This document shows, piece by piece, positions 2,902 to 64,000 of a DNA stretch of 64,000 bases. How positions within the stretch are numbered: the stretch's first letter is position 1; every line of letters starts with the position of its first letter. Position numbers and translations under genes: made by a program. The notes below the pieces were generated by a model. It ran no database searches. It was not told where the DNA came from and worked only from the letters and a program-made list of their open reading frames with translations. The DNA is from Pontiellaceae bacterium B1224 (GTDB lineage: Bacteria > Verrucomicrobiota > Kiritimatiellia > Kiritimatiellales > Pontiellaceae), in contig JAROBA010000004.1 of assembly GCA_029432815.1 (NCBI GenBank), forward strand, positions 124,001-188,000, in the 5' to 3' direction.

Positions 2902-2955
2902 CTTTTTTGTTTTTTGCACCTTTACTAACCACGGGTGCCGATGTAGGAGACTTGT

Positions 2956-4212
2956 ATGTATTTCCATCGGGTAACTCTAATTACAGGTCTCGCAGGATGG
3001 ATCGCGCTCTCTTCGTATGCCGTCACGCTTTCAAACATCGTTGATGGCGTTTCCGAGGGGAGCTATTCCAACTTTCACGTCAATCTATTTGTATCTGATG
3101 GCGACAGCCGCGGCTTCAGTACGAATGACAACCCGCGCGTACCACTCCCTCAGCACGATCTGGCACGAGACTATATTCACTCCAATTTCCAAGCCATGGG
3201 CTATGACACATGGCTTGACCCCTTCGACTTTACCTATACGGCGGATGTCGTCGATTATAACTATACTAACTGCAATAACATCGTTGCCGTGAAATGGGGA
3301 GTTGGCGGAACAAATGTCTATATTCTGGGCGCGCATTACGACTCGGTTGATCTGGGAAACCTCCATACGACAGCTCACAGCCTGACCAATTCCGGCCCGG
3401 GAGCTGACGACAACGCCAGCGGAACTGCGGCCCTTTTAGAGGCTGCTAAAGCAATTAAAGATTATATATTCAAGGACACGATCGTCATTGTCGCCTTTGA
3501 TGCTGAGGAGAAGGGATATCAGGGGTCGATCCATTTCAAGGATACTTATCTCACAACCTCAGCACCGGGAACAAATGCTCCCCCCTTTTTAATATCCTCC
3601 ATCAGGGCTATGGTTAATCTCGACACCATTGCTTATAAAGATACAAACACATCAGATTACGTCGTAATTGGCAGTGCTGGCTCCCCTAATTCGATATCTT
3701 TTGCCTTGGCAGACGCAGTATCAGCATACACTACTCTGGAACCCTATATGGCAGGCGGTTATAATTTGAGTGACCATAAAATCTTCCAGGCCGCCGGCAT
3801 TGATTCCGTCCAGTTAATCGAATACGACTTTGACAATTATTCAAACTTTCCAGATCCAGGAAAAAATTTATATTACCACACCGACGGGGATTCAATCGAT
3901 TCCCCCAACTACATCCATTACGATTATGCTACCGAGATTACGAAGGCAGTCGTTGGAGCCTGCTGCAATTATGCCACGCCCATTCCTCCCGCCACGCTTT
4001 CGCAAACCGTGATCGCAAGCAACACGGTTTCCGTGAGCTGGATGAGTGCTCCGTATATTGAATACGACCTTCTTGGGACAAGCGATCTCGTCAGTTCCAA
4101 CGGTTGGGAATTCATACAGCATGTCCCTTCAACGAATACGACGATGTTGCTTTCCGTTGAGTTGAGTCTGGAAGAAACCACGCAGCGCCTGTTCAGAGTT
4201 GAAAGTAAATAG
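2956..4212 (+). CDS. Secreted M28-family zinc aminopeptidase, first of a tandem pair
   Basis: This is a metallopeptidase of the M28 (aminopeptidase Y/S) family, likely exported by the hydrophobic N-terminus (about residues 5-22, ending near SSYA). Zinc-site motifs are in the expected order: HYDS at about 127, PGADDNASG at about 149-157, FDAEEKG, MVNLDTIAY and LSDHKIF. About 70 residues at the C-terminus follow the peptidase domain; they resemble a small beta domain (SVSWMSAPYIEYDLLGTSDLVSSNGW) seen as an appendage of secreted proteins. GGAG at about 2945 supports the start. The next gene, 12 nt downstream, encodes a related peptidase, so this looks like a local duplication. Codon use is AT-richer than the neighbours. 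Confidence 0.85.
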   Translation: MYFHRVTLITGLAGWIALSSYAVTLSNIVDGVSEGSYSNFHVNLFVSDGDSRGFSTNDNPRVPLPQHDLARDYIHSNFQAMGYDTWLDPFDFTYTADVVDYNYTNCNNIVAVKWGVGGTNVYILGAHYDSVDLGNLHTTAHSLTNSGPGADDNASGTAALLEAAKAIKDYIFKDTIVIVAFDAEEKGYQGSIHFKDTYLTTSAPGTNAPPFLISSIRAMVNLDTIAYKDTNTSDYVVIGSAGSPNSISFALADAVSAYTTLEPYMAGGYNLSDHKIFQAAGIDSVQLIEYDFDNYSNFPDPGKNLYYHTDGDSIDSPNYIHYDYATEITKAVVGACCNYATPIPPATLSQTVIASNTVSVSWMSAPYIEYDLLGTSDLVSSNGWEFIQHVPSTNTTMLLSVELSLEETTQRLFRVESK

Positions 4213-4224
4213 CCAAAAGGCAGT

Positions 4225-5280
4225 ATGCGGAATCTTGCTTATATTTTCCTGATTATCATCCCCCTGCTCGCTTCCTGCAGAAACCCGCAGTTAATACGTT
4301 CTGAAGTCCCTTCGAAAGTTTCCTCCCGAAGTTATGAACAGTTTCATCAAAGTCTATTTGTATCCGACGGCAACAGTCGCGGTTTCACACACAGCGGGGA
4401 GTTGCGTCGCCCCGCCTATCAGCACGATCCGGCCAGGGAAATCATTGCCGCAAACTTTCGGGACATGGGTTACATCACATGGCTGGATGCTTTCAGTTTT
4501 GAGAAGTTCGGTGCTGTTTACACCAACTGCGCCAATGTGGTGGCCGTCAAACGGGGAACCACCGGGAAACGTATCCATATCATCGGCGCGCATTATGACA
4601 CCGTCGATTCGGCACACGCCCAGGTGACCCGCTGCCCCGGCGCCGATGATAACGGGAGCGGCGTGGCAGGCCTGCTCGAAACGGCGCGGATTATTCAGAA
4701 TGAACAGTTCCGGGATACCATCATATTTATTGCCTTTGATGCGGAGGAAAAGGGGTCGTATGCAAATGATGGCCCCGGGTCTCCCGGCGCTCTGCATTTC
4801 ATTAACACGCACACCACCACAGAACCTTCTAAGGTCAGTACAAACACATTTCTCCGCTCCGGGATCATAGGTATGGTCAGTATCGATATGATTGGCTATG
4901 ACGATGCCGCATCGCCACCCTTTGTTGTGATCGGGAGAAAAAGTTTTCGGGGCTCTTCCGTTGGAAACGATTTAGAACGTTCCATAGAGATGTATTCAGA
5001 CCTTATTCCCTTCCAGGCCTACGCATACAATCAAAGCGATCATATGCCCTTTCATCATGCAGGAATCGACGCAGTGCAGCTGATGGAATACGATTTCAAG
5101 GATTACTGGAACCGAAACAACAGTTTAATGACTGAAAATCCGCACTATCATACCGATGCCGATTCCATTGATTCTCCAGACTACATTTCATATGACTACG
5201 CAGCGGAGATCACAAAATGTGTTGTGGGCTACCTGTGCAATCAGGCCGGCTTGATCCCATTCCAGGGGCAGGAACCGTAA
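4225..5280 (+). CDS. M28-family zinc aminopeptidase, lipoprotein, second of a tandem pair
   Basis: The N-terminus MRNLAYIFLIIIPLLASC is a lipoprotein signal with a lipobox (LLASC), so this copy is expected to be membrane-anchored while its upstream paralogue appears soluble. M28 motifs: HYDTVDS, PGADDNGSGVAGLLE, FDAEEKGS, MVSIDMIGYD and NQSDHMPFHHAGID. The shared start of the mature region (FHQSLFVSDGNSRGF versus FHVNLFVSDGDSRGF) shows that the two genes are duplicates. This copy ends soon after the peptidase domain and lacks the C-terminal extension of the first. An insertion after the DAEEKG motif (about YANDGPGSPGALHF) distinguishes it. Substrate is unknown; exported peptide turnover is the likely role. 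Confidence 0.85.
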   Translation: MRNLAYIFLIIIPLLASCRNPQLIRSEVPSKVSSRSYEQFHQSLFVSDGNSRGFTHSGELRRPAYQHDPAREIIAANFRDMGYITWLDAFSFEKFGAVYTNCANVVAVKRGTTGKRIHIIGAHYDTVDSAHAQVTRCPGADDNGSGVAGLLETARIIQNEQFRDTIIFIAFDAEEKGSYANDGPGSPGALHFINTHTTTEPSKVSTNTFLRSGIIGMVSIDMIGYDDAASPPFVVIGRKSFRGSSVGNDLERSIEMYSDLIPFQAYAYNQSDHMPFHHAGIDAVQLMEYDFKDYWNRNNSLMTENPHYHTDADSIDSPDYISYDYAAEITKCVVGYLCNQAGLIPFQGQEP

Positions 5281-5333
5281 ACCCGCTTCAGAATGTCATT
5301 TGCCCAGTGCATCTGTCTCTGTAAAGTGCGCCC

Positions 5334-7346
5334 ATGATTTCTCTCGATCCAGTACCAACCCCGCAGGCTGCGGAACTGACCGACCGCTTTTTTGAGCCGG
5401 GCGGTCTGCTGGAGCAGCATTGCCTGGCCGCGAAGATCGACTTCGAATTGCGCCCCCAGCAGCAGAAGATGGCCCGGGCCGTGGCGGATGCCGGCGGATT
5501 CAGCCGCCATCTCGCCGTCGAAGCAGGCACCGGCGTCGGGAAAAGTTTTGCCTATCTGGTTCCGCAGATCCTGACCGCGCTTGAACATGACACCCGCTGC
5601 GTGATCGCCACCTACACGATCACCCTGCAGGAACAGCTGATGCACAAGGATATTCCCTTTGTGCGCGAAGCACTGGGTCGCGATTTTAAAGCGGTGATGG
5701 TGAAAGGCCGCTCCAACTATCTCTGCCTGCTCCGGCTTCAACGCGCACGCCGGGCCAGCGGCGATCTGTTCGATGCCACGCGATCGCAGCAACTTGACGA
5801 TATCTACGCGCTCGCACAGGCCCGCAATCTCGGCGACGGCAGTTATCAGGAATTGGAAGAACAGCCAGACCATGAAGTCTGGGGAACGATCTGTGCCGAG
5901 CATGGTAACTGCACCGGCAAGCGATGCCCGTTTTATAAAGAGTGCTACTACATCAACGCCCGTCAGCAAATGATGGATGCCCAGGTGCTGGTGGTGAACC
6001 ATTCCCTCTTCTTTTCCGAGCTCGCCCTGCGCGCCGAAGGCGCGGCCATGCTTCCGCCCTACGGCTATGTGGTGTTCGACGAAGCCCACCAAATGGAACA
6101 GGTGGCCTCATCTCATCTGGGGCTCCGCCTCTCGCTCTACCAGATCGAATACTGGCTGCGCCGGCTGCACAGCGAAAAGCGGCGCGGCATTCTCTCGGTC
6201 CTCAAAGACGGTAAAGGCACCTTCATGGCCGATCAGGTCCGCGAGGCCGCCGACACCTTTTTTGAAGCCGTAAAAAACCATTTCAAACTCGGCCCGCAAA
6301 AAACACAGCAGCGCGTCTTTGATCCCCCGCCGATTGAAACCGACCTGCCACTTAAAATGACCAACCTCTGCGGGCATCTCAAAGGTGTCACACAAACCAC
6401 CGACAACGAGGATATTCAGGCGGAGATTAAATCGCTGCGCAACCGCGGCCTCGAACTGCGCGACGCCATTGAATCGTTTCTCAGGCAATCGCTCAAAGGC
6501 CACGTCTATTGGGTGGAGGTTCAGGGACGCCGCCGCCTGCCGGTTCTGTTCTCCGCACCGGTGGATGTCGGGCCGATTCTGCGGGAAGTTCTATTCGAAG
6601 AGATCCCCTGCGTCGTGATGACCAGCGCGACGCTCGCCGTTGGGAATAACCTCGAATATTTCCGCCACCGCGTCGGGGCCAACGACTGCCACGAGCTGCA
6701 GGTCGGCTCGCCCTTCGACTATTCCAAACAGATGCAGGTCCAGATCCCGATCAACATGCCGCCGCCGGCCGCCAGCAACTTCGAAGACATGGCCACCAAG
6801 GCCATCAAACATTTTGTAGACGAAAGCCGGGGCCGCGCGTTTGTGCTCTTCACCAACAGCCGATTCATGCGAAAAGTCGCCGACGAACTCCGCTTCGACT
6901 TCGAGCTCGACGGCTATGAATTTCTCGTGCAGGGCACCGGCATTCCGCCGAAACGCATGCTCGAAAAATTTCGCGATCACGATGCCGCCGTCCTCTTCGG
7001 CCTCGACCGCTTCTGGATGGGAGTCGATGTGCAGGGCGAGGCCTTGAGCAACGTCATCATCACCCGCCTGCCCTTTGCCGTACCCGACCATCCGCTCATT
7101 GAAGCGCGATTCGAAGCCATTGAAGCACGCGGCGGAAATCCATTCAAAGAATACTCCCTGCCCGAAGCCGTACTGAAATTCCGCCAGGGCGTCGGCCGCC
7201 TGATCCGCAGCGGCAGCGACTACGGCACCGTCACCATCCTCGACAGCCGGATTTACAACCAGTGGTACGGCCGCCTCTTCCTCGAATCCATCGAAGACTG
7301 CCCCGTTGAACAGGTCGAAGTTCCCGATCTTGGATCCAGCACATAG
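5334..7346 (+). CDS. DinG/XPD-family ATP-dependent DNA helicase
   Basis: A superfamily 2 helicase of the DinG/XPD type, 670 aa. Walker A is EAGTGVGKS (residues 63-71), the DEAH box starts at about 249, and motif VI is [16 protein letters not shown] near the C-terminus. Cysteines at about 131, 187, 193, 198 and 204 sit between motifs I and II where XPD-type enzymes carry a 4Fe-4S cluster; one of the five is extra. Family members unwind 5'-tailed DNA, R-loops and D-loops during repair. No nuclease domain is visible at the N-terminus, in contrast to some Gram-positive DinG proteins. It is transcribed alone, 53 nt after the second peptidase gene, and faces a convergent gene. Confidence 0.88.
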
Positions 7347-7466
7347 TGCAGCCCACCCCGGTACAGCCTGCAGTACATACCGGGCTCCGTGCGAATGCCA
7401 TTTCCAATCATTGGAAAATCGGAGATCCATCGGTACCAGTAGAGTCTGGGCCCAGGGCAGCTACAA
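7347..7466. terminator. Convergent intergenic region with two inverted repeats
   Basis: Between the ends of the helicase gene and the giant membrane-protein gene lie CCCGGTA (7357-7363) and TACCGGG (7378-7384), a 7-bp stem with a 14-nt loop. A perfect TTTCCAA-TCA-TTGGAAA palindrome follows at 7401-7417. Neither is followed by a clear T-run, so a role as a bidirectional terminator is only inferred from the convergent placement. Confidence 0.35.
7402..7416. repeat. Palindrome TTCCAA-TCA-TTGGAA
   Basis: Perfect intergenic copy between two convergent genes, extended by one T and one A to 17 bp. Confidence 0.9.
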
Positions 7467-10400
7467 TTAAAACGAGGTCATTATATTCTGGAGGATGGCG
7501 ATTGCGCCAACCCCGCCGAACGGCGTAAGCACAGCCAGCAGAATTGGATTACTGCTAAGCGGAGAAAATGCACCCTGATTACACTCTCTGACCTCCCGCA
7601 GATAAAATTCAATGTCTGATCTATCTGACCTTGAATTCAATAGCTCATAGTTCAGTTCATTAATTGAAATTTTTTGAGCCTGCCGGGCTTTATAGCGCAG
7701 ATAAACCGCCGCAAAAAGCGAACCGAAAACGGTCAGACTCACAACAACGATCAATGGAACCGGCCAATCCCACAAATCTATCTTTTCATAGCGGGCCAGT
7801 ATCAAAAGCAGCAGCGCAACGAATGGATAGATCACCTGACGACCCGTTGTTTCTGTTACCCGGCCGATTAAACGAACTGTCTTGATATGCTGTAAGGGCA
7901 AATCCAATACACTTCCATTTTTTTCAACCCATGGGCAGGGCTGAAAGCGTCCTTTTGTATAGGTATACAGATTGGCAACAAAGCGCGCACACCGGAGCTG
8001 GCTGTAAATAGTAATCACACAAAGCATCGTCATAGCGATGAGCGACAATTGTAATGTAATCAGATGCGCTCCGAGAGCGCATTCACCGCGATAGGGTGTA
8101 AATGGCGCATCCATTCTCACAATGAAAGAGGAACACCGTCCATAAATCATTGTGATCACGAACAGAGAAAAATAGGCCCAGCCGATATTCCTCCGGGAAC
8201 TGTAAGCCGCCCACAGCTCACCTATCGTGGAATATCCTTTGCCCTTGAGGTAGGGCCAGAAAAGCATCGTCCCGAATTTCAACTTATCCGAATCATCATG
8301 TGCGGGTGCGATGTCAAATTCGGCGGGTACCCGCATCTGATCCGCGCGAATAGAAAAATACATGCGCAGGATAAAATAGAGCGATACAATGAATGCCAGC
8401 AGACGAAGAATCAACGAGGGCCAAATGGAGATTCCGCTGGTGAGGGCGAGTGGTTCTCCAAGGTTGGGGGATTCTGCATTCTTCATGATGATTCCTCCCA
8501 GCCAACCACTGGCGATAAAACTGACCAGTAGAAAGATGAGCCAAACTACGGTATTGCGCTTCCCTCCCGGATTTTCCATTGCGGCACATAAATATCCCCT
8601 CAAGGCGAGTAGCAGAGCAGGTATGATCAACACGATAAAAAGGGTCCATAAAATCCGATTCTTATGATTTACCCAGCGGTTTTCAGGATTGGGGTGCAGT
8701 TTGAGAAATGCAGGGCCATCCGTCTGTTCATCCGGAGGCAGTTTCGAAAGGTCATAGGGACCATTTCGACCGATTTCAAATATACGGGGATTATACGCAT
8801 CGATATTAAAAACCCACTCTTTTCCCATCAGCACCGAAATCAGGGTTGCATAGGTTGACGTCTGATAGGCATTCCGGAAGGGGGGCGTACCCTTTTGCAA
8901 ATCCTCGTGCAGCTCGAGGCCGTAGCTGGAGCCAACAACGAGGCCGCGCGTCCATTTCAATTCGGACGGATGTGAAAAGCGCGCATCCAGATCGGTCGTA
9001 AAAAAGACGGCATCTGGCAGCTGCGGCCGCAGTGCCCGCAGGATCAGGAGCTTGTCATAAGGATCGCTTCCGAAGATGCCGATCGCCTTAATCTTCTTAC
9101 CGCTATCTTTCATCACCTTAATACGACCAGTCAATCGCCTCAGATAATCATACTGACTGGGCCCATCGGGATATCGGAGATTCAGCGACTGGTGCACATT
9201 ATTAAACGCATCCGTTTCTTTTTTTTCCCCGACCGGGACGGGAAGGTGTTTATTGCCGGGAGTCAGACCATCAATCCCCCTCAGATAATTAAACACATGT
9301 ATGTTTTCCGGCCATATTCCCCTATTGTCCTCTTCTCCCCAAAGCTGACTGTATTCCAGTGCGAAACTCAGCGAAAGAGCCCGCGTAAAAAGCGAATCCC
9401 ATTCCCCGACTAATACCACATCTGCGGGTTCGGGCACTTCGTCAGGATATATCGATTTACGAACCCTCGTTACAGGAGGAGGAAGCGCACCTCGCTGGAC
9501 CAGCTCCTCCAACAGAGCCTGCACCACCACATTATCCCGATGAATCGTTCGGTTAAAATGGACGCCATGAAAGAGAAGCAGTTCTTCCCGCAACCCCACT
9601 ACTCCTCGATCATTTTCTGTTTTCCAGGCTCTGGAAAGTTCTGCAAATGAACCTCCGAGTGAATTCGTTTTCGCCGCAACGGACAGGATTGCATAGTCAG
9701 CGGTTGCCCAGGGGGAGAAAACACTGAAATCCGGTTCCCCACTACCCGTTAACAAAATATCAGTCATGGGCGGCAGTCGATTAAGTTCGTTTTGCTCTCT
9801 GTGCCGAATGCTACACGCGAGTTCTTCTAACGCTTTTTGCTCCGTCTCTAAACTAGTGATCTGGCTATCTGTTTCCGCTTTCTTGACGCCATTTATAATG
9901 GAAGCTGTCAGCTCCTGGTTGACCTGCGATACTCCCAAGGCCTTGCTGTTATCACGAAATGCCACGTCAGCCTGTGCCAACTGCTTTAATTTTCTTTTCT
10001 CAAAGCAACTGTATTTCTTCACAATGTTGGTTTCAACAGCACTGATCAGTGTCTGGTAGGCTGCCTCTGAAGTTTTAATTTCATTTTGCACGGCCATGCT
10101 GAGTTGATTAAGGCGGGTTTGCTGGCGTGCATGACCGGCTCCCTGCAGGTATTCCTCCCTCGTCGCCAAGGCTGTTTCCACCTCATTCGAGACGATTCCT
10201 TCCACCAGCTTACACCATTGCAAATTGACCATTAACTCAACTTTTTTCTGGTCTTCCGACGTCCATAAAACCTGGCTGCTTTCCCCTTCATCCCGATGCT
10301 TCATATCGTTACGGCTTAAGGCCTCAAGTTGCATGGAAATGTTTTGCTGTTGAACTTGGCATCCCTCATCCAGACCCCGTAAATTCGTCAGCAGATGCTC

Positions 10401-11543
10401 CGCTTTTTTTGCTTCGAGATAGTCATGTAATACAACAGGCACCCCATTGGTATGCTCAGAACGGCTCTCTTTCTTTTGCTTTCCGAAGGTAATTAAATTA
10501 ATCCCCTGCTTAAATGGGCGAATGACGTTCTGAATTAATGTTAGATCTCCTGACTCCTTAATACATGTCTGAAGGGCATTAGATGAAGCCACATAATTTG
10601 TGTCGGCCTTTTTAACCTTTTCCAGAAGACGAACCGGGTTCAGGTCGGGTTCATTCAGCAAGTCGGAAACCTGTTCCTTAGCCGACAGCTCTCGGACATC
10701 CACTTCCTTTCTGATAAGAGCCGCTTTTGAATCCAACCAATCAGCACTGCGCCTTAACACATACATTTCATCGAGCACCCGCAGGATATCGCTCGATGAG
10801 CGCGGCCCTATAATTCTGACCGTATAATCAATTTTCGTGTCCTCTGAAATCCCATCAAGAATGGCCTCTGTTAAGAGGTTGAAATCGGTCAGTGGTCCCT
10901 GTTTTGGAATTTCAATCGCCGTCGATCTGGTTTTCAGAAAATCATCTTCAACCCACAAAATACAGACATTCTTATAAGGTCGGCTCATGCTCTTTGGCTG
11001 AGAAAATTCAGGATCTTTTCCACGCCGGGACTCCGCATCCAGCATAAAGCTCTGCATCTTATTTCTGGAAAACCATTCATACGGAACCTGCAGCGTTCTG
11101 GTTCCAACCTCCAGCGATCCCACTCCTGTCATCATCGAATTATCACGATCATACCCAGCCACGTTAAGCGCCGCCAAAACTGCATAGCGCTGCTGGATTC
11201 GCCGCTCCTTGATTTCCGGATAATTCAGCCGCTCCATGATGATGGGAATGATCAGCGTATCCGATTTTTTCTTCGAGATGATAGCTGGAATGGGAGGCGC
11301 TAACGGGGGCGGACTATCTTCATCCTGAGCATCATTCCACCGCTCCAGAATCTCGACAGGATCTTCCCACAGCCGCGAGATCACCTTATTATCCTGCGGC
11401 TCAACAACCGGTATTTTTTCCAGCTCCGGCCTTTTAGATTGCAACGGCGACTGATTCTGAAACAGGACCCCGCCAACAATTGCTGAAAAAAGCAGCAGCA
11501 GGTTACCGAGCGGAATTGAATTCATTGTTCCCTGATTGTTCAT
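7467..11543 (-). CDS. Giant membrane protein of unknown function (about 1358 aa)
   Basis: I do not recognise a named family. The start was set at ATG 11543 because GGGAGG lies 5 nt upstream; an in-frame ATG at 11570 lacks such a site. One membrane segment lies near residues 8-25. A following globular part contains VPYEWF and VCILWVEDDF; a long charged helical, probably coiled-coil, middle comes next. Then comes an alpha/beta part (DVVLVGEWDSLFTRAL, IKAIGIFGSDPYDKLLILRALRP, DAVFFTTDLDARF) that resembles a periplasmic-binding-protein-like fold. From about residue 960 there are roughly seven or eight hydrophobic segments. The likely topology is a large loop domain between an N-terminal anchor and a C-terminal membrane domain. 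Sensing or signalling is a guess. The gene stands alone between a convergent helicase and the DUF1573 gene. Confidence 0.75.
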   Translation of the reverse strand: MNNQGTMNSIPLGNLLLLFSAIVGGVLFQNQSPLQSKRPELEKIPVVEPQDNKVISRLWEDPVEILERWNDAQDEDSPPPLAPPIPAIISKKKSDTLIIPIIMERLNYPEIKERRIQQRYAVLAALNVAGYDRDNSMMTGVGSLEVGTRTLQVPYEWFSRNKMQSFMLDAESRRGKDPEFSQPKSMSRPYKNVCILWVEDDFLKTRSTAIEIPKQGPLTDFNLLTEAILDGISEDTKIDYTVRIIGPRSSSDILRVLDEMYVLRRSADWLDSKAALIRKEVDVRELSAKEQVSDLLNEPDLNPVRLLEKVKKADTNYVASSNALQTCIKESGDLTLIQNVIRPFKQGINLITFGKQKKESRSEHTNGVPVVLHDYLEAKKAEHLLTNLRGLDEGCQVQQQNISMQLEALSRNDMKHRDEGESSQVLWTSEDQKKVELMVNLQWCKLVEGIVSNEVETALATREEYLQGAGHARQQTRLNQLSMAVQNEIKTSEAAYQTLISAVETNIVKKYSCFEKRKLKQLAQADVAFRDNSKALGVSQVNQELTASIINGVKKAETDSQITSLETEQKALEELACSIRHREQNELNRLPPMTDILLTGSGEPDFSVFSPWATADYAILSVAAKTNSLGGSFAELSRAWKTENDRGVVGLREELLLFHGVHFNRTIHRDNVVVQALLEELVQRGALPPPVTRVRKSIYPDEVPEPADVVLVGEWDSLFTRALSLSFALEYSQLWGEEDNRGIWPENIHVFNYLRGIDGLTPGNKHLPVPVGEKKETDAFNNVHQSLNLRYPDGPSQYDYLRRLTGRIKVMKDSGKKIKAIGIFGSDPYDKLLILRALRPQLPDAVFFTTDLDARFSHPSELKWTRGLVVGSSYGLELHEDLQKGTPPFRNAYQTSTYATLISVLMGKEWVFNIDAYNPRIFEIGRNGPYDLSKLPPDEQTDGPAFLKLHPNPENRWVNHKNRILWTLFIVLIIPALLLALRGYLCAAMENPGGKRNTVVWLIFLLVSFIASGWLGGIIMKNAESPNLGEPLALTSGISIWPSLILRLLAFIVSLYFILRMYFSIRADQMRVPAEFDIAPAHDDSDKLKFGTMLFWPYLKGKGYSTIGELWAAYSSRRNIGWAYFSLFVITMIYGRCSSFIVRMDAPFTPYRGECALGAHLITLQLSLIAMTMLCVITIYSQLRCARFVANLYTYTKGRFQPCPWVEKNGSVLDLPLQHIKTVRLIGRVTETTGRQVIYPFVALLLLILARYEKIDLWDWPVPLIVVVSLTVFGSLFAAVYLRYKARQAQKISINELNYELLNSRSDRSDIEFYLREVRECNQGAFSPLSSNPILLAVLTPFGGVGAIAILQNIMTSF

Positions 11544-55789: not shown

Positions 55790-56923
55790 CTATAACAATG
55801 ATTGAATTGCTTGGCGCACCTTACTCCATTCAGGTTCTTCAGTCATATAGCACCATGAGAGACGTATTGCTGATTTGATGCGGTCCTCAGACAGTCCCAT
55901 GGCAGTCAGGACATGGCTTGGTTCATAGCTCTGTGACGTGCAAGCAGACCCATTTGAGATTGAAACTATACCCTTGAGGGCAAGCATGACTGCCTCAGAG
56001 TTCAAGCCATTGAATGAGAGGTTTAAAACATGCGAAACAAGAGATCCCTCATCTCCGTTAACTTGATAATCTAGACCATGGAGCGCAGAAAATACTCTCT
56101 CCCTAAATGCACGATTCTTAGCGGCACGCTCAGAGTGGTGTTTCTTACAGCATTCTGCAGCAACACCGAGTCCAGCAATCAAGGGCACAGGAAGTGTTCC
56201 TGGGCGCAACCCACGCTCTTGCCCCCCACCAAATTGAATAGGAGTTAAGGGTGCTCTTTTGAACTTTCTACGGCGCATAACAAGAGCGCCAATACCCTTG
56301 GGACCATATATTTTGTGCCCACTTATACTAATGAGATCAATTCGTGGATGGTTAAGTTTTTCCAGTTCCTTGCCGTACCCCTGAGCAGCATCAGTGTGAA
56401 AATAAACGCCTTGCTGCGGCAACGCATCAGCAACCTCATCAATAGGTTGAATACTCCCCGTCTCGTTATTCACATGCATCATGGAGACAAGAAAGGTGTC
56501 ATCTTTTACAGCGGATAGCATATCTGAAGCTGTGACCACTCCAGAAGAATTGGGATTAACGTAAGTTACCTCAAAACCCAAAGACTCTGCGTAAGCTACT
56601 GGTTCAATTATGGCTTTGTGCTCAATAGACGTTGTTACTATATGGGTTTTACCGTTATCAGTTGCCCATTTTAGCATCCCTAGTATGGCGAGGTTATTGG
56701 ATTCAGTCGCACCTGATGTAAAGATGACATCCGATGAATCAATACCATCGAAGACCGACGCTACCTGTTCCCTAGCCTTTTGCACTGCCAGTTTAGCTTT
56801 ATTTCCATATTCATGGGTACGGCTTCCTGAATTACCATACTCCTGTTCCGTATACAGCCGAATGATCTCAGCCACCTCTGGTTCAACTGGCGTCGTAGCA
56901 TTATTATCCAAGTATACGCTCAT
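55790..56923 (-). CDS. dndA: Cysteine desulfurase of DNA phosphorothioation
   Basis: A NifS/IscS-like PLP enzyme of 377 aa that supplies sulphur for phosphorothioate DNA. Features: YLDNNATTPVEPEV, FTSGATESNNLAI, SIEHKAI, MMHVNNETGSIQPI, the PLP lysine K204 in SGHKIYGPKG, and the catalytic cysteine C328 in SNGSACTSQSYEPSHVL. Enzymes of this kind also serve Fe-S cluster synthesis; the DndA role is inferred from its place next to dndBCDE, divergently transcribed with 94 bp between start codons, as in the known Streptomyces layout. The gene is AT-richer than the genes to its left. Confidence 0.88.
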   Translation of the reverse strand: MSVYLDNNATTPVEPEVAEIIRLYTEQEYGNSGSRTHEYGNKAKLAVQKAREQVASVFDGIDSSDVIFTSGATESNNLAILGMLKWATDNGKTHIVTTSIEHKAIIEPVAYAESLGFEVTYVNPNSSGVVTASDMLSAVKDDTFLVSMMHVNNETGSIQPIDEVADALPQQGVYFHTDAAQGYGKELEKLNHPRIDLISISGHKIYGPKGIGALVMRRRKFKRAPLTPIQFGGGQERGLRPGTLPVPLIAGLGVAAECCKKHHSERAAKNRAFRERVFSALHGLDYQVNGDEGSLVSHVLNLSFNGLNSEAVMLALKGIVSISNGSACTSQSYEPSHVLTAMGLSEDRIKSAIRLSWCYMTEEPEWSKVRQAIQSLL

Positions 56924-57017
56924 AAATACCCTGTTTGTATTGTTTCACATACTGTTTGTTTGATCACGCACACAAGAAAATGTAGTTTACGTCCATCGTG
57001 TGTACAAGGAAAGAAAG
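56924..57017. promoter_or_regulatory. Divergent dndA-dndB promoter region
   Basis: A short AT-rich gap that must serve both directions. TTGATC followed 17 nt later by TAGTTT is a weak sigma-70-like pair toward dndB. CACAC and GTGTG words flank it. The known DndB proteins repress dnd transcription, so an operator is expected here, though none is proven. Confidence 0.35.
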
Positions 57018-58124
57018 ATGAGCAACGAGCATTCATTTGAATATGAGTATGTATTCCCCTCCATACGAGGGGTTCAGGCTCAACAGGAATACTATATTTC
57101 TATGTGTCCAATACGCCTTATACCGAGAATGTTCATGTTTGATGAACCAGGCATTCCTCCAGAGCTCAGGGCCCAGCGAACGCTCAACCAAGCCAGAATA
57201 CCTGAAATTAAAAGATATATTCTCGATAATTTAAACAACTATGTCTTTTCTGCAATCACAGCATCCATTGATGGCGAAGCAAAATTCGAACCTTACGGAG
57301 GGGATAAGCATCGCAACAAAATGGGCAATCTTCATATCGATATGAGTGCCAAACTCATTATCAACGATGGACAGCACCGCCGTGCAGCCATTGAAGAAGC
57401 GATCATGGAGAATCCTGACATCGCCAATGAAACTCTTGCTGTTGTGTTCTTTCTTGATCCTGGATTAAAACGATGCCAGCAAATGTTTGCGGACCTCAAT
57501 CGCTATGCCATTCGCCCCTCAAAGTCTCTCGGCATTCTATACGACTACAGGGATGATTTTTCGATATTAACCAAAGAAATTGTAGCCCGATCTGAATTAT
57601 TCCGAAGCGTAGTAGAAATGGAACGCAGCTCCTTATCAGCTCGCTCCAGAAAACTGTTTACACTGAGCGCAATTTACTCAGCGAACAAAGCTCTATTAAA
57701 AGGGGCAACCGATAGTGGTGAGGATCAAATAAACTTTGCTGTAGATTTCTGGGAATGTACTGCAAAACAACTAAAAGAATGGAATTTGGTATTCGAGCAT
57801 AAGTTGAGTGCTGGCGAAACACGAAGTGACTATGTCCACTCTCATAGCACCGCCTTACAGGCTATTGGAATGACGGGAAACACCTTAATTAAAATCCACC
57901 CCAATAACTGGAAGAGCCAGCTGAAGAAACTAAGGAAAATTGACTGGGCTCGGTCAAATAGCACTGCATGGGAGGGGCGCACCATGGTTGGTGGAATGAT
58001 TCAAAAGGCATCGAATAACATCGTCCTTACAGCTAACTATATTAAAGCAAATCTCGATCTAGAGCTTACCCAAGAAGAACAGAAAGCCGAGGAGGCATTC
58101 ATGAGGGGTCATAATGGGAACTGA
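57018..58124 (+). CDS. dndB: DndB, DGQHR-domain protein of the phosphorothioation system
   Basis: A 368-aa protein with the diagnostic D-G-Q-H-R at residues 117-121 (INDGQHRRAAIEEAI) and the following FADLNRYAIRPSKSLGILYDYRD, as in the DndB family. DndB is reported as a negative regulator of the dnd operon. The start at 57018 has AAGGA 7 nt upstream; a GTG at 57000 is in frame but less likely. It overlaps dndC by 11 nt. A second DGQHR protein is encoded at 62843. Confidence 0.9.
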   Translation: MSNEHSFEYEYVFPSIRGVQAQQEYYISMCPIRLIPRMFMFDEPGIPPELRAQRTLNQARIPEIKRYILDNLNNYVFSAITASIDGEAKFEPYGGDKHRNKMGNLHIDMSAKLIINDGQHRRAAIEEAIMENPDIANETLAVVFFLDPGLKRCQQMFADLNRYAIRPSKSLGILYDYRDDFSILTKEIVARSELFRSVVEMERSSLSARSRKLFTLSAIYSANKALLKGATDSGEDQINFAVDFWECTAKQLKEWNLVFEHKLSAGETRSDYVHSHSTALQAIGMTGNTLIKIHPNNWKSQLKKLRKIDWARSNSTAWEGRTMVGGMIQKASNNIVLTANYIKANLDLELTQEEQKAEEAFMRGHNGN

Positions 58125-59670
58125 TCAGAAATCAGACTCTGCATTTTCTAAACACGGCATCAACAAACATGTTGATGCCCTACTGAAAGAAATTATTGAT
58201 TTATACCAAGCCGATAAAGTCCCGTGGGTAGTTGGTTATAGCGGAGGTAAGGACTCAACAGCGGTATTACAATTGATATGGATGGCAGTTCAAAAGATCC
58301 CAAAGAGCCAGAGAAACAAGATTATTCATGTAATCAGCACTGACACCTTGGTTGAGAATCCAATTGTTGCAGAGTGGGTTGCGGGTTCCATCAATTGCAT
58401 GATTACAGCAACCGATAAGGGAGACCTCCCATTCAATCCGCAGCAATTAATGCCTAAACCAGAAAATAGTTTCTGGACGAACCTAATAGGCAAGGGCTAC
58501 CCAGCTCCCCGACCGAAATTCAGGTGGTGTACGGAACGTCTTAAAATTTGGCCGTCTAATGAGTTCATCCTGAAAACAACAAAGCAACATGGTGACGTAC
58601 TGCTTTGCCTCGGCACACGAAAGAAGGAGAGCGTGAAGCGTGCAACAACTATGCAGCACTACGAGGACGAGCGGGACAAGGAGCATAGATATGGCGAGCT
58701 TGATGCGGGGCACAAGGTAAGCCCCAACAGTCAACTTCCCAACACTTGGGTGTATTCCCCCATACAAGACTGGTCGAACGATGATGTCTGGTTGTTTCTA
58801 AACCAGTTTCAAAATCCATGGGGCTACAGCAACCAGGAACTACTCGGGCTATACTCAGGTGCTACCGAAGGAGGAGAATGTCCCTTAGTTGTTGATACCA
58901 CAACCCCTAGCTGTGGAGATAGCCGGTTCGGGTGCTGGACCTGCACATTGGTAGATCAGGATAAATCCATGTCAGCGATGATCCAAAATGATGCTGATAA
59001 AGAATGGATGCTCCCATTATTGGATATCAGAAATACTATCGACTATCGCCGGTTTGGGCTGGAAGAAAGTGATCGGGAACTACGTGATTTCCGTCGAATG
59101 AATGGCCGAGTACAGCTTTTTGGAGACGGAATGAAATACATTCCCGGTCCTTATAAAAGAGGCTTTAGGGAAGAACTCTTAGGCAAACTCCTAGAAGCCC
59201 AAAAGTTCATTCAGGAAGAAGGTCCCGAAAATGTTAAAAATATACAACTGATCACTCTCAATGAGCTGGAAGAGATCCGACGTATCTGGGTCATGGATAA
59301 ACATGAGATCGAAGATCATCTGCCCAAAATCTATGAAGATGCTACCGGCGAAGAGTATCCAGGAAAAGATATCAGCGGAAATCAGCCCTTTGACAGGGAT
59401 GATCTACAACTCCTCGAAGAGATTTGCGGACAGCATTATCCTCTGGTACGAGATTTAATTGATGTTGAGCTTCAGCAATCAACGCAACTCAAACGCACTA
59501 AGCTGATGAAAAATATAGAAGGTTCGATTAAACGCAACTTCTATGAAGATGAACAAGATGCACTAGCTTACAGCCGAAAACAGCAACAACACAAAACAGA
59601 TACAATAGAAGAATGGGATCGAGTCACAGACGAATATATCGAACCCAAAGCTGACCAAGGCCAATCATGA
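58114..59670 (+). CDS. dndC: DndC, PAPS-reductase-like sulphur incorporation enzyme
   Basis: A 518-aa N-type ATP pyrophosphatase: the PP-loop SGGKDS is at residues 43-48 (VVGYSGGKDSTAVLQLIW). Cysteines at 256, 267, 274 and 277 (ECPLVVDTTTPSCGDSRFGCWTCTLV) are the probable 4Fe-4S ligands. The enzyme activates the DNA backbone or carries sulphur from DndA. The frame overlaps dndD by 4 nt (ATGA), so translation is coupled. Confidence 0.92.
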   Translation: MGTDQKSDSAFSKHGINKHVDALLKEIIDLYQADKVPWVVGYSGGKDSTAVLQLIWMAVQKIPKSQRNKIIHVISTDTLVENPIVAEWVAGSINCMITATDKGDLPFNPQQLMPKPENSFWTNLIGKGYPAPRPKFRWCTERLKIWPSNEFILKTTKQHGDVLLCLGTRKKESVKRATTMQHYEDERDKEHRYGELDAGHKVSPNSQLPNTWVYSPIQDWSNDDVWLFLNQFQNPWGYSNQELLGLYSGATEGGECPLVVDTTTPSCGDSRFGCWTCTLVDQDKSMSAMIQNDADKEWMLPLLDIRNTIDYRRFGLEESDRELRDFRRMNGRVQLFGDGMKYIPGPYKRGFREELLGKLLEAQKFIQEEGPENVKNIQLITLNELEEIRRIWVMDKHEIEDHLPKIYEDATGEEYPGKDISGNQPFDRDDLQLLEEICGQHYPLVRDLIDVELQQSTQLKRTKLMKNIEGSIKRNFYEDEQDALAYSRKQQQHKTDTIEEWDRVTDEYIEPKADQGQS

Positions 59671-61640
59671 TATTTCTCCAACTAACACTGCAAAATTTCG
59701 GACAATACAGAGGTTTCCATGAAGTACAAATGGGAACAACTAAAACAAAGCCGATCCTTCTTATCGGCGGACATAATGGAGGAGGCAAGACCACCATTCT
59801 TGATGCCATGCAACTTTGCTTGTATGGCAAACGATCAAACTGTTACGGGAGATCTGAGCGACGATGGGACACCTATTTACGTTCGTGGATAAACCGGGAC
59901 AGTGATCCAAAACAAGAAACCCGCATCAAGCTACACTTTCGACATCCTCATGAAGGTCGAGAGACTGACTTCCGAATAGAGTTTTCCTGGCGATCAACTG
60001 GCAAAAGCATTTCAGAACGAAAAGAAGTATATATTAACGATACACTACACAACCAAATCACAGAAACCTGGGATAAGTTCATTGATTCAATCCTGCCAGC
60101 TCGCCTTTCCACACTATTCTTTTTTGACGGGGAACAGATTGAGAATCTTGTGCGACCAGAAACTGCTAAGATCTTCCTAGAGTCTGCCGTCTCAGAATTA
60201 TTGGGCATCGGCACGTTGGATCAGCTTCACCGTGACCTTACAACTTTGAATCGAAATAAATCCCTCCAAAATAAATCAGCAGTAGAGACTCAAAAGCTTC
60301 GAGATGCTGAAGTTTCGTATGAGGAAACCCAGAAGCAAGTTTGCCACACTGAAGACCATTTAGTCATATTGCGAAAACATCACAAAGGTCTCACCAAACA
60401 ACTTGAGGTGCTGGAATCTGAATACGAATCCAAGGGAGGCAAACTCTTGGATGACCAGACTTCAAACGAGAAGATAAAGGAGGAGCTGGAACGGCAAATT
60501 GAAACGCTGAATCGGCAAATAATTAAAGAAGAGTCAGGAGAGCTCCCTCTTCATCTTGTTAAGGGTCAGCTAAAGGAAATAAAAGCTCAGACAGTTAAGG
60601 AAGCTGAGGCAAAAGACTGCGCACAACAGCAACAACAAATAGAACGAATGCATGGCAAGTATCTTCGAGCGGCCCAAAAGACTGGTGCATCAGAAGAGGT
60701 ACTCACAGCATTGTCCTCTCTGGCCGATAAGGAGAAAATACGACTTGGAAATAGGGCCGAAAGCACCTCAGTATACTTGAACCTGAATCCCAGCACAGTA
60801 TCGCTCCTGAAAGCTACACTTAAAACCCTTCCTAGTGCAGAGAAGCACTGTCGGAATTTAAAGAAGCAGCGAAGTGACATAGACCAACGGATAAAAAAAC
60901 TAGAAGCCAAGCTTGATGCAACTCCAGAAAAGGGAGCACTAAACACACTCCTTAAAAAGCGGAGAGAGCTCACGAAAGAGCTCTCTAAGTCCGAACTGGA
61001 GATAATTACCAAGGAAGAGCTTCTTGAACAACTGAGGGCCAAAGCAGGACAACAAAAAGACCGTGTTGTACGCCTACTGGGAGATTCTGCCACAGAAAAA
61101 GCCCAGTATGAAGACGATGAGCGCACCGTCTTTTACAGCTTGAAGGCACAGGAATACCTAAAAGAGTTTCGAACTCAATTACTCAACAAGCATCTGGGGA
61201 AATTGGAAATCTATATACTCGAAAGCTTCCAACACCTTATTAAAAAGCAATCGTTAGTGCACCGACTTAGGATTAATCCCTCCACCTTTTCCATCGAGCT
61301 AACCAACAATGAAAGAAAAATAATCCCTGCAGAAAAATTGTCAGCAGGAGAGCGGCAGCTACTTGCAATAGCAGTCTTCTGGGGACTCCAGAAAGCATCA
61401 AGTCGCCCAATTCCCGTTATGATCGACACTCCTATGGGGCGTCTTGATTCCTCACATCGAGAAAACTTGGTAAAACGCTATTTCCCATTTGCAGCGCATC
61501 AGCTTGTCTTGTTATCCACCGATGAAGAGATCGTCGGCGACTACTACAAAAAAATCAGCACACACACACACCACGAATTAACCATTGCATTTGACGAAGA
61601 AAAAGCGACCACTCACATCAAGGAGGGATACTTTCAATGA
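59667..61640 (+). CDS. dndD: DndD, SMC/Rad50-like ATPase
   Basis: A 657-aa ATPase of the SbcC/Rad50 type. N-terminal LQLTLQNFGQYRGFHEVQM, then Walker A GGHNGGGKTT (residues 34-43). Residues about 200-540 are a long coiled coil rich in Lys, Glu and Gln. The C-terminal half has KLSAGERQLLAIAVFWGL (signature at about 557) and Walker B VMIDTPMGRLD (Asp at about 587). The Q-loop is expected near KIRLHF-like sequence at about 90. It is thought to act on DNA structure during modification. Overlaps dndE by 4 nt. Confidence 0.92.
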   Translation: MIFLQLTLQNFGQYRGFHEVQMGTTKTKPILLIGGHNGGGKTTILDAMQLCLYGKRSNCYGRSERRWDTYLRSWINRDSDPKQETRIKLHFRHPHEGRETDFRIEFSWRSTGKSISERKEVYINDTLHNQITETWDKFIDSILPARLSTLFFFDGEQIENLVRPETAKIFLESAVSELLGIGTLDQLHRDLTTLNRNKSLQNKSAVETQKLRDAEVSYEETQKQVCHTEDHLVILRKHHKGLTKQLEVLESEYESKGGKLLDDQTSNEKIKEELERQIETLNRQIIKEESGELPLHLVKGQLKEIKAQTVKEAEAKDCAQQQQQIERMHGKYLRAAQKTGASEEVLTALSSLADKEKIRLGNRAESTSVYLNLNPSTVSLLKATLKTLPSAEKHCRNLKKQRSDIDQRIKKLEAKLDATPEKGALNTLLKKRRELTKELSKSELEIITKEELLEQLRAKAGQQKDRVVRLLGDSATEKAQYEDDERTVFYSLKAQEYLKEFRTQLLNKHLGKLEIYILESFQHLIKKQSLVHRLRINPSTFSIELTNNERKIIPAEKLSAGERQLLAIAVFWGLQKASSRPIPVMIDTPMGRLDSSHRENLVKRYFPFAAHQLVLLSTDEEIVGDYYKKISTHTHHELTIAFDEEKATTHIKEGYFQ

Positions 61641-61999
61641 GCCTTGAAACTGTAAGAATTTCCGACAAAGCGAAGTATCAGCTCATTAAGGTAAAACAAA
61701 AGACCGGCATAGAGCACTGGAACGTCCTATGTCGCTGGGCGTTTTGCCTTTCCCTTGCAGATGAATCCATTCCTTCACCAGCAAAAATCCCATTAGATAG
61801 TAATGTCGAGATGACATGGAGGGTATTCGGTGGTGAGCACCACGAACTATACCTAGCATTACTTAAACATCGTTGTCAGTGCGACAATAAAGGGGCTACC
61901 ACCGAGGAACTTACTACACAGTTTAAACTCCATTTACATAGAGGCATTGGCATGCTTTTATCATCTCAACTGACGAACAACCCTTCATCACATGAGTAA
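61637..61999 (+). CDS. dndE: DndE, DNA-binding component of phosphorothioation
   Basis: A 120-aa protein with the DndE pattern: VRISDKAKYQLIKVKQKTGIEHWNVLCRWAFCLSLADESIPSPAKIPLDSNVEMTWRVFGGEHHELYLALLKHRC. DndE proteins bind nicked DNA. The length and position after dndD match the known order. The stop is 20 nt before the HNH gene. Confidence 0.9.
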   Translation: MSLETVRISDKAKYQLIKVKQKTGIEHWNVLCRWAFCLSLADESIPSPAKIPLDSNVEMTWRVFGGEHHELYLALLKHRCQCDNKGATTEELTTQFKLHLHRGIGMLLSSQLTNNPSSHE

Positions 62000-62019: not shown

Positions 62020-62838
62020 ATGGGGAAAAATAGCCTAACACCAGGGGAGCAACTCTCTGAACTGATCTCAGAGGTAGTACACTCTGAGAATCCTGAATCT
62101 GGTTTCTTAAAAAACATGGATAACCTTCTAGTTGCAGATGGTGAATTCCTTGAAATGCAAAAGAAGAGCATTATATTTTACACAACTCGTCGACTTATCC
62201 ATGGCGCATCCTATGCACTGGAAAAAGCTATGGTGCATTACATGGATTCCCAGAATGCAATTCCAGTCATTAAAGATTACCTAACTAATAATTATTCGTT
62301 CAGTCTAACAGAAGAGCAAGCTAATCGACTTCACGCCTTAGTATATAGTTGCGTTGACGCCTCTCATAAAGATTTATCAACAGCCCAACGAAACAAGGCT
62401 CTAGAGCAGTTTAGACGCTTAGAGATAACAACCTGTTACATGTGTGGGGTTGAGATCGACTTTGATTCTGTTGACAATAAAAATTCCGCATCAGTAGAAC
62501 ATCTTTTCCCTAGCGAATACGGCGGTGACTCTCGGTTTGAAAATTTAGCACTATCCTGTAAGGATTGTAATAAACATAAAGACGACCATATGCACCCATC
62601 TGATTTTCATTTCGAAAAAATATCTACAAAGCACGACTATGGTCACAAGAAATTTTCCAAACAATTACTGGTTAGCAAACAAGTTGTGGCAATGTGGTTG
62701 AAGGAAGGCTGTGAATGTACGATTTGCGGAAAGCCAGCTAGTGCTGCCGGGATGCTTTCTGTATTTCAGAAAGAGCCTGCGGACTCTTGGCACTTTCTCA
62801 ATATCGGAGTACAGTGCTCTGCTCATAACGAAGGATAA
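62020..62838 (+). CDS. HNH endonuclease-domain protein (272 aa) linked to dnd genes
   Basis: A zinc-bound HNH nuclease module: CYMC at 139-142, SVEHLFPSEYGGDSRFENLALSCKDCNKHKDDH with E160-H161, N175, C180-x-x-C183 and H186. The N-terminal 135 residues are helical with no family I can name. The C-terminal 45 residues hold a further metal site (CECTICGKPA, then VQCSAHNEG). AAGGA lies 7 nt before the ATG. The gene follows dndE by 20 nt, so it is probably part of the operon. It could be a phosphorothioate-dependent or modification-blocked nuclease; none of the known DndF, G or H types is similar. It is followed at 4 nt by a second DGQHR protein. Confidence 0.8.
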   Translation: MGKNSLTPGEQLSELISEVVHSENPESGFLKNMDNLLVADGEFLEMQKKSIIFYTTRRLIHGASYALEKAMVHYMDSQNAIPVIKDYLTNNYSFSLTEEQANRLHALVYSCVDASHKDLSTAQRNKALEQFRRLEITTCYMCGVEIDFDSVDNKNSASVEHLFPSEYGGDSRFENLALSCKDCNKHKDDHMHPSDFHFEKISTKHDYGHKKFSKQLLVSKQVVAMWLKEGCECTICGKPASAAGMLSVFQKEPADSWHFLNIGVQCSAHNEG

Positions 62839-62842
62839 ATGT

Positions 62843-64000
62843 ATGTCTGAAACACTTAGTTACCTCGGCACTAGAATCAAACAAAGGCAGTCAGTTGACT
62901 GCCCTTACTTCTTCACCTTTTATGCTAGCGTCAGTGAAATCACCCAATGGGCAGGCGTTAAGAGAACTGAAGAACAGGAGCATGGGGCACAGCGTGTTAC
63001 TAAGCCAGCAAGGCTTGCTTCGATAACACGATTCCTAGAAGCCAGAGGTGACAATACATTACCAGGGAGCATTATTATAGGCTTCAAACGGGACTCTATA
63101 TCTTTTTCTCCAGACACAAACTTTGATATATCTAACCGCTGTCAAAATGAAGCCCAATTGGGATCTTTAGACATTACATTTGACCCCACCGCACCAACAC
63201 ATGAAAAGCCAGGATTGATCGTGGATGGTCAACACCGGGTCTTTGGCAGCAAAGCACTTCACAATGAAGATGTTCCACTGTTAATTGTTGGCATTCTAGA
63301 TGCCGATATTGAAGAACAAGCATTCCAGTTCATCGTTATCAATCAGAAATCATCGAAGGTTCCAACAACAAATGTGAAGTCCATCATTGCGGACATCGAG
63401 AGTATTAATACAAATCTTGGGAACCGATTAGAGGCCGCAGGCATACGTTATGGTGAAAACACCCCAACCTTGAAACGCTTTAATAGCGAAGTTTCTAGTC
63501 CTTTCTATAAATTACTCGACTGGGAGCTAAATGACCGTGACACTGAAGCTAAACGAATAGTTACGGTCACCGCAATTGAAGCCTGCATACGACAACTACA
63601 GTCTTCGTTCGAATCATTATTAGATGATACTGAGTCAGCAGAGTCAGTGTTTCTAACGGTTTGGAGTACTCTCAAGTCGAATTATGAAGACCTATGGAAT
63701 GATGACTCTGGAAACAAATTTCTGAAGAAGGTTAACATAGTGGCTATCAATGAATATTTAACTCATAGCTTATTGATGGAATGGGCCAAAGGAGATATTG
63801 ATCCACTTGAAGAATCTGAAGTACAGGAATTCGTATTAGGAATCTTTTCATCCATCCCAAAAGAGTTTTGGACTAGAGAATGGAAAATTAAAATTCAAGA
63901 TAATTCCAACGTGAGAGATCTCATCAAGGGTGATCTTGAGACGATGCTTGTAAATGTCAAACTTCAAAGAGAGTGGACAAAAAAACTAAAACTCATCTCC
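62843..64000 (+). CDS. DGQHR-domain protein, second in the cluster (3' end outside window)
   Basis: The first 386 residues are visible and the frame is open to the window edge. D-G-Q-H-R at 128-132 (GLIVDGQHRVFGSKALHNEDVPLLIVGILDADIEEQAFQFIVINQKSSKVPTTNVKSIIAD) places it in the DndB/DGQHR family. It is much less like DndB of this cluster outside the motif and is longer. The family may act in regulation or DNA binding. AAGGA lies 7 nt before the ATG. Together with the HNH gene it forms a two-gene extension to the dnd operon. Confidence 0.82.
   Translation, partial: MSETLSYLGTRIKQRQSVDCPYFFTFYASVSEITQWAGVKRTEEQEHGAQRVTKPARLASITRFLEARGDNTLPGSIIIGFKRDSISFSPDTNFDISNRCQNEAQLGSLDITFDPTAPTHEKPGLIVDGQHRVFGSKALHNEDVPLLIVGILDADIEEQAFQFIVINQKSSKVPTTNVKSIIADIESINTNLGNRLEAAGIRYGENTPTLKRFNSEVSSPFYKLLDWELNDRDTEAKRIVTVTAIEACIRQLQSSFESLLDDTESAESVFLTVWSTLKSNYEDLWNDDSGNKFLKKVNIVAINEYLTHSLLMEWAKGDIDPLEESEVQEFVLGIFSSIPKEFWTREWKIKIQDNSNVRDLIKGDLETMLVNVKLQREWTKKLKLIS

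Follow-up and report, generated by a model that had tools for sequence, protein, structure and literature searches.

A two-gene HNH-DGQHR pair found beside both phosphorothioate and 7-deazaguanine DNA modification genes

Introduction

The closest described systems to the one reported here are DndI, SspE, and GmrSD. DndI, of the IscS-DndBCDE-DndI system, joins a ParB-like ATPase domain and an HNH nickase in one protein; phosphorothioate (PT) stimulates its ATPase and frees DndI from self-DNA, and the protein is harmful to cells without PT (PMC11662687). SspE is a single protein with a similar PT-linked logic of ParB-like nucleoside triphosphatase (NTPase) plus HNH nickase, and its partner is SspABCD, a PT system of the single-strand type. 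GmrSD, which combines a ParB/sulfiredoxin (Srx) fold with an HNH nuclease and cuts modified DNA, exists as two separate proteins or as one (PMC4619093). The DGQHR/ParB superfamily also holds DndB, a transcriptional regulator (PMC4507180), and DpdB, an ATPase of the modification step (PMC12839542). Here, we analyzed 64,000 nucleotides from Pontiellaceae bacterium B1224 (“the window”), which end inside a dnd locus where dndE is followed by genes for an HNH protein and for a DGQHR protein other than DndB. The original prediction, made from the DNA letters, was that these two may form a distinct effector of PT-based defense. We found that the two genes form a unit shared by PT and 7-deazaguanine systems. 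On balance, we lean toward reading the pair as an autonomous two-gene, split ParB-HNH effector cassette that would cut DNA without the host's modification.

Results

Pairing and genomic contexts of the HNH and DGQHR genes

Three aligned DGQHR proteins, one from the window and two from plasmids, served as the query for a context-free scan of 84,980 species genomes. Removal of two identical copies left 41 loci of the specific DGQHR family. The pair-family model scored full-length members at about 340 to 496 bits, DpdB at about 65 to 112 bits, and the DndB of the window at 20 bits. An HNH relative, full length or cut by a contig end, lay directly upstream on the same strand in 38 of the 41 loci, commonly overlapping the DGQHR gene or within 40 bp of it. 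Distances among the HNH proteins tracked those among the DGQHR proteins, with a Spearman rho of 0.89 across 13 Dnd loci and 0.87 across 13 Dpd loci, and 0 of 999 permutations gave values as high. Correlations of HNH and DGQHR with DndC (0.21 and 0.22) and with DpdA (−0.13 and −0.07) were not significant; those with DndD were modest (0.42 to 0.44), compared to 0.83 between DndC and DndD. The HNH-DGQHR pair travels as a unit.

These data bear on two other explanations. The genes could be chance neighbors, or the HNH gene could be of a homing type and unrelated to the DGQHR gene, as HNH genes are common and mobile and phage HNH proteins match the HNH domain alone. However, the full-length HNH family, the constant gene order, and the co-divergence already contradict this idea, which we find barely credible. 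Alternatively, the DGQHR protein could be mainly a regulator or modification accessory, with the HNH protein as a repair or processing nuclease of the modification reaction. Membership in the DndB/DpdB superfamily and the known roles of DndB (PMC4507180) and DpdB (PMC12839542) fit such a function. Yet many loci already carry a DndB or DpdB of their own, and the pair shows no co-divergence with DndC or DpdA, as a modification subunit should; we consider an accessory role very unlikely.

Context was counted within 10 kb of each locus, and the incompleteness of metagenome-assembled genomes (MAGs) applies to these counts. Dnd, Pbe, or DndFGH genes were present at 19 of the 41 loci, Dpd 7-deazaguanine genes at 17, and neither at 5. 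Such genes therefore accompanied 36/41 family loci versus 3/26 lower-scoring control DGQHR loci from the same scan. PT-only specificity was rejected, since 17 of the 36 contexts are Dpd. With about half of its relatives in Dpd islands, the pair is not the phosphorothioate-specific effector first proposed.

The placement of the pair varied. It followed dndE in the window and in L009, pbeD in L014, L029, and L036, dndH in L038, dpdD in L024 and L025, and que genes in L045 and L052, and it was convergent to dndE in L004, L031, and L032. The nearest relative, the Phycisphaerales MAG locus L009, has the whole arrangement at 67 to 82% identity except for the last gene. In L038 (“Candidatus Nitrotoga,” 963 to 11095), the pair comes after dndFGH on the same strand, as an addition to a DndFGH effector operon. 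Searches with the HNH protein in 146 near genomes and with the DGQHR protein in 388 genomes of the phylum found the pair's proteins in this genome only, and a scan of viral contigs with the HNH protein gave no match.

On the DGQHR tree, the Dnd and Dpd labels changed 3 to 4 times, versus about 13 times when shuffled, so switching appears to be repeated but uncommon. Few switches are what would be predicted for a sensor that has to match its mark.

Several related arrangements were seen alongside the family. In a distant version (L007, L053, L054, L057, L071, and L080), an approximately 500- to 620-aa DGQHR protein with an insert precedes a weak HNH relative, the reverse order; most of L007, L053, L054, and L057 are at Dpd islands. 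On an Aliivibrio wodanis plasmid (L084:18072-19975, minus strand), another second DGQHR protein and a 207-aa hypothetical partner lie between dndE and dptH, in the orientation opposite to dndE, possibly a parallel pairing. In four cyanobacterial loci (L016, L017, L020, and L021) with dndC present and no canonical dndB matched, the pair is preceded by a gene for a 530-aa protein. The L020 copy gave a weak match to the DGQHR model (E = 3e-4), and the 530-aa protein is possibly a divergent DndB.

Features of the HNH and DGQHR proteins

Confident Pfam matches of the HNH protein (HNH_5, HNH, and HNH_4) were confined to residues 139 to 192. The N-terminal part (residues 1 to about 133) matched nothing in any library searched, which bears out the prediction of a 272-aa HNH protein (open reading frame [ORF] at 62020 to 62838) with a new N-terminal domain. 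Across 36 homologues, the cysteines of a C4 zinc site (C139, C142, C180, and C183) are invariant and the catalytic-type residues E160-H161-N175-N184, in the pattern [E/D]HNN, are essentially so, position 184 being N in 34/36. The second zinc site noticed earlier also proved real: C233, C236, C266, and H/C269 (H269 in the window) are conserved in the window's clade and are otherwise found in one Dpd clade only. The AlphaFold model (predicted local distance difference test score [pLDDT], 90.1) has an all-helical N terminus. Its top Foldseek match in the PDB was the HNH nicking endonuclease of G. metallireducens (Gme; 4h9d), with EcoKMcrA also among the best. From model and sequence, we infer that a new, helical N terminus is joined in this protein to an [E/D]HNN domain of the HNH nickase type.

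The second DGQHR protein starts at ATG 62843 and runs 9 bases beyond the window. It is distinct from DndB, as predicted, matching PF14072 with an E value of 6e-9 versus 3e-135 for DndB. It reaches no equivalog: it scored 84 bits against the DpdB model NF041060 (cutoff, 300). Like TIGR04172 (“DNA phosphorothioation-associated DGQHR protein 1”), it is a second DGQHR protein in a dnd cluster, but it scored 39.6 bits against that model (cutoff, 450). Motifs Q50-R51, D128GQHR132, and F163xxxN167 are invariant or nearly so in the family; QR, DGQHR, and FxxxN have been listed as motifs shared with GmrS (PMC4619093). The AlphaFold model (pLDDT, 91.9) drew leading PDB matches that were almost all ParB/sulfiredoxin folds (Noc, ParB with CDP, PadC, and Srx). 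Foldseek E values were weak for both proteins (0.02 to 0.3), and we assign a probable ParB/sulfiredoxin fold because the matches agree and the motifs are present. When solved structures were searched by sequence with the DGQHR profile, the only match was one due to chance.

We then compared the pair with the ParB-HNH effectors. It shares with them the ParB/Srx fold (at weak E values) and the DGQ[QH]R, QR, and FxxxN motifs, and with GmrSD also [E/D]HNN and the two-gene form. However, GmrS is a DUF262 protein and GmrD a DUF1524 protein, while Pfam found PF14072 but no DUF262 (PF03235) in the DGQHR protein and no DUF1524-type HNH in its partner. DndI, like the pair, ties a ParB-fold NTPase domain and an HNH nickase to dnd modification genes; it differs in being a single DUF262-DUF1524 protein with the motif DGQQR, whereas the pair comprises two genes, a DndB-type DGQHR gene and an HNH_5 gene, and also occurs with Dpd. 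DndB and DpdB belong to the same DGQHR/ParB superfamily but score low with the pair-family model, and neither has a partner HNH protein. The pair is analogous to, but no member of, the GmrSD, SspE, and DndI group. The curated PADLOC and NCBIfam models searched include none for the pair as such, and a literature search of open-access text found no paper describing it.

The likeness to GmrSD raises the possibility of a modification-dependent (type IV) enzyme, which would cut foreign-modified DNA, as GmrSD cuts glucosylated DNA, and ignore host marks. The motifs in common with GmrS, the one- or two-protein makeup of GmrSD (PMC4619093), and the presence of the modification-dependent nuclease EcoKMcrA among the closest HNH structures all fit. 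Type IV genes would be expected to stand free, however, while 36/41 loci lie next to host modification genes or the effector genes that go with them, and such an enzyme would need to tolerate two unrelated host marks. We judge a type IV activity unlikely. By our analysis, the cutting of unmodified DNA is better supported than the cutting of modified foreign DNA: a nuclease that harms a host lacking the modification, as has been reported for DndI (PMC11662687), should occur almost only together with a modification system, and the pair does so.

Organization of the locus in Pontiellaceae bacterium B1224

The window ends inside the locus, and the same contig extends 7.2 kb further. The genes within the window are as follows.

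55790 to 56923, minus strand: dndA, cysteine desulfurase, divergent from dndB (TIGR03235, 512 bits; cutoff, 480)
57000 to 58124, plus strand: dndB, canonical DGQHR-family regulator of PT modification (TIGR03233, 528 bits; cutoff, 328)
58114 to 59670, plus strand: dndC, PT sulfurtransferase (TIGR03183, 616 bits; cutoff, 290)
59667 to 61640, plus strand: dndD, ATP-binding cassette (ABC) ATPase without a CxC hook (TIGR03185, 542 bits; cutoff, 246; no CxC motif)
61637 to 61999, plus strand: dndE (TIGR03184, 129 bits; cutoff, 72)
62020 to 62838, plus strand: HNH protein, 272 aa (ORF and Pfam HNH)
62843 to 64000 in the window, plus strand, stop codon ending at the equivalent of 64009: second DGQHR protein, 388 aa (ORF and PF14072)

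All five of dndA to dndE exceed their NCBIfam equivalog cutoffs in one locus, so the modification set is complete, as originally read. Between 55000 and 64000 of the window, GC content is 41 to 45% across the dnd locus versus 50 to 56% to its left; this fall suggests an acquired island.

Past the DGQHR gene, the order is pbeD, pbeC, a 49-aa ORF, pbeA, a gene for a 766-aa protein, and the contig end. The pbeDCBA module is convergent to the DGQHR gene and starts 19 bp past its end. We identified pbeD by TIGR04062 (118.7 bits; cutoff, 74), pbeC by PADLOC PbeC (5e-226), and pbeA by PADLOC PbeA (2e-235). The 49-aa ORF occupies the pbeB position and was assigned by length and place only. PbeC has the CxC hook (CICG at residue 340) that defines its ATPase clade (PMC10853773). 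The locus thus has the parts of a PbeABCD system: a phospholipase D (PLD)-helicase PbeA, a small PbeB-sized ORF, a CxC ATPase PbeC, and a DndE-like PbeD adjoining dnd. Dnd and CxC (Pbe) systems occur in tandem in 936 bacterial taxa (PMC10853773), and the Dnd-Pbe background is a known kind of locus. The 766-aa protein (L002:14815-17115, minus strand), whose gene immediately precedes pbeA in the pbe operon, contains a stretch resembling sigma-70 region 4. L009 has a 647-aa relative at the equivalent position; in the remaining pbe loci checked, phmmer gave no match.

Where the window stopped, no dndFGH genes were in view. This held further on: none occurred in the 7.2 kb to the contig end, and DptH had no match anywhere in the genome. 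The apparent lack of an effector, in contrast, came only from where the window stopped, and we rejected an empty effector slot since pbe, a known alternative PT-linked defense module, is directly downstream. Like the pair, PbeABCD is a PT-linked module, but its composition differs and the pair is an addition to it. The proposal of a distinct effector accordingly stands as to one functional unit (38/41 adjacent; rho, 0.87 to 0.89) but not as to the replacement of a missing restriction module, because Pbe lies directly downstream.

A back-up suicide nuclease, which would stay inactive until phage proteins knock out the main system and would then damage host DNA, is a role proposed for standalone nucleases in Dnd loci (PMC10853773). 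In line with such a role, the pair is usually next to a complete effector (Pbe, DndFGH, or Dpd), and in this locus it comes last in the operon. However, the pair and dndE are here same-strand neighbors no more than 20 bp apart, and at some loci no other effector was found. We hold this role to be quite unlikely.

Discussion

Under the split-effector model that we favor, the DGQHR protein would bind nucleotide through its predicted ParB/sulfiredoxin fold and read the host DNA mark, and the HNH protein would nick DNA. The two may form a physical complex with anti-phage function, acting like a split SspE or DndI: they would attack unmarked DNA and would either be kept off marked self-DNA or let go of it. 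The mark in this genome would be the phosphorothioate made by DndA to DndE, with the cassette as a second layer of effectors next to the convergent Pbe module. Relatives carry this cassette in Dpd 7-deazaguanine islands or after dndFGH.

Some observations weigh against this model. Because other effectors are usually present alongside the pair, it may not be the chief one. In L023 and L047, both of which carry the pair, neither Dnd nor Dpd genes turned up. Of the 5 loci with neither context within 10 kb, L046 has dpdA elsewhere in its assembly and L022 is cut by a contig end. In the model's favor, several copies with few or no such neighbors (L010, L046, L055, and L056) come from genomes that hold Dnd or Dpd genes at another site. 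Also in its favor, neither PbeA nor DndH was found at the thresholds used in the dndC-bearing MAGs L018, L019, and L031 (DndI- and SspE-type proteins were not searched for there), and the pair may be the effector in them, but absence calls in MAGs are unsafe. On the other side, a DGQHR relative at L049 (10001 to 11182) apparently lacks the D-G of the motif through a short deletion before QHR, either a natural variant or a sequence error. Separately, HNH-DGQHR gene fusion was dropped as proof of contact, as the long ORFs in L027, L030, and L046 look like start-site or assembly artifacts.

It is possible, though we put this at slightly below even, that one HNH-DGQHR cassette works as an exchangeable nuclease able to sense either mark, backbone sulfur or 7-deazaguanine, having switched several times with its sensor retuned at each switch. 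The same predicted nuclease-sensor pair is attached to both phosphorothioate and 7-deazaguanine defense systems, so far treated as separate. It is a candidate for the effector of those dnd and dpd loci in which none is recognized, and it opens to experiment the question of whether proteins of the DGQHR/ParB fold read DNA marks in general. Taken together, our data suggest that the pair moves between bacteria and between two chemically unrelated DNA-tagging defenses as a general, little-noticed cutting module.
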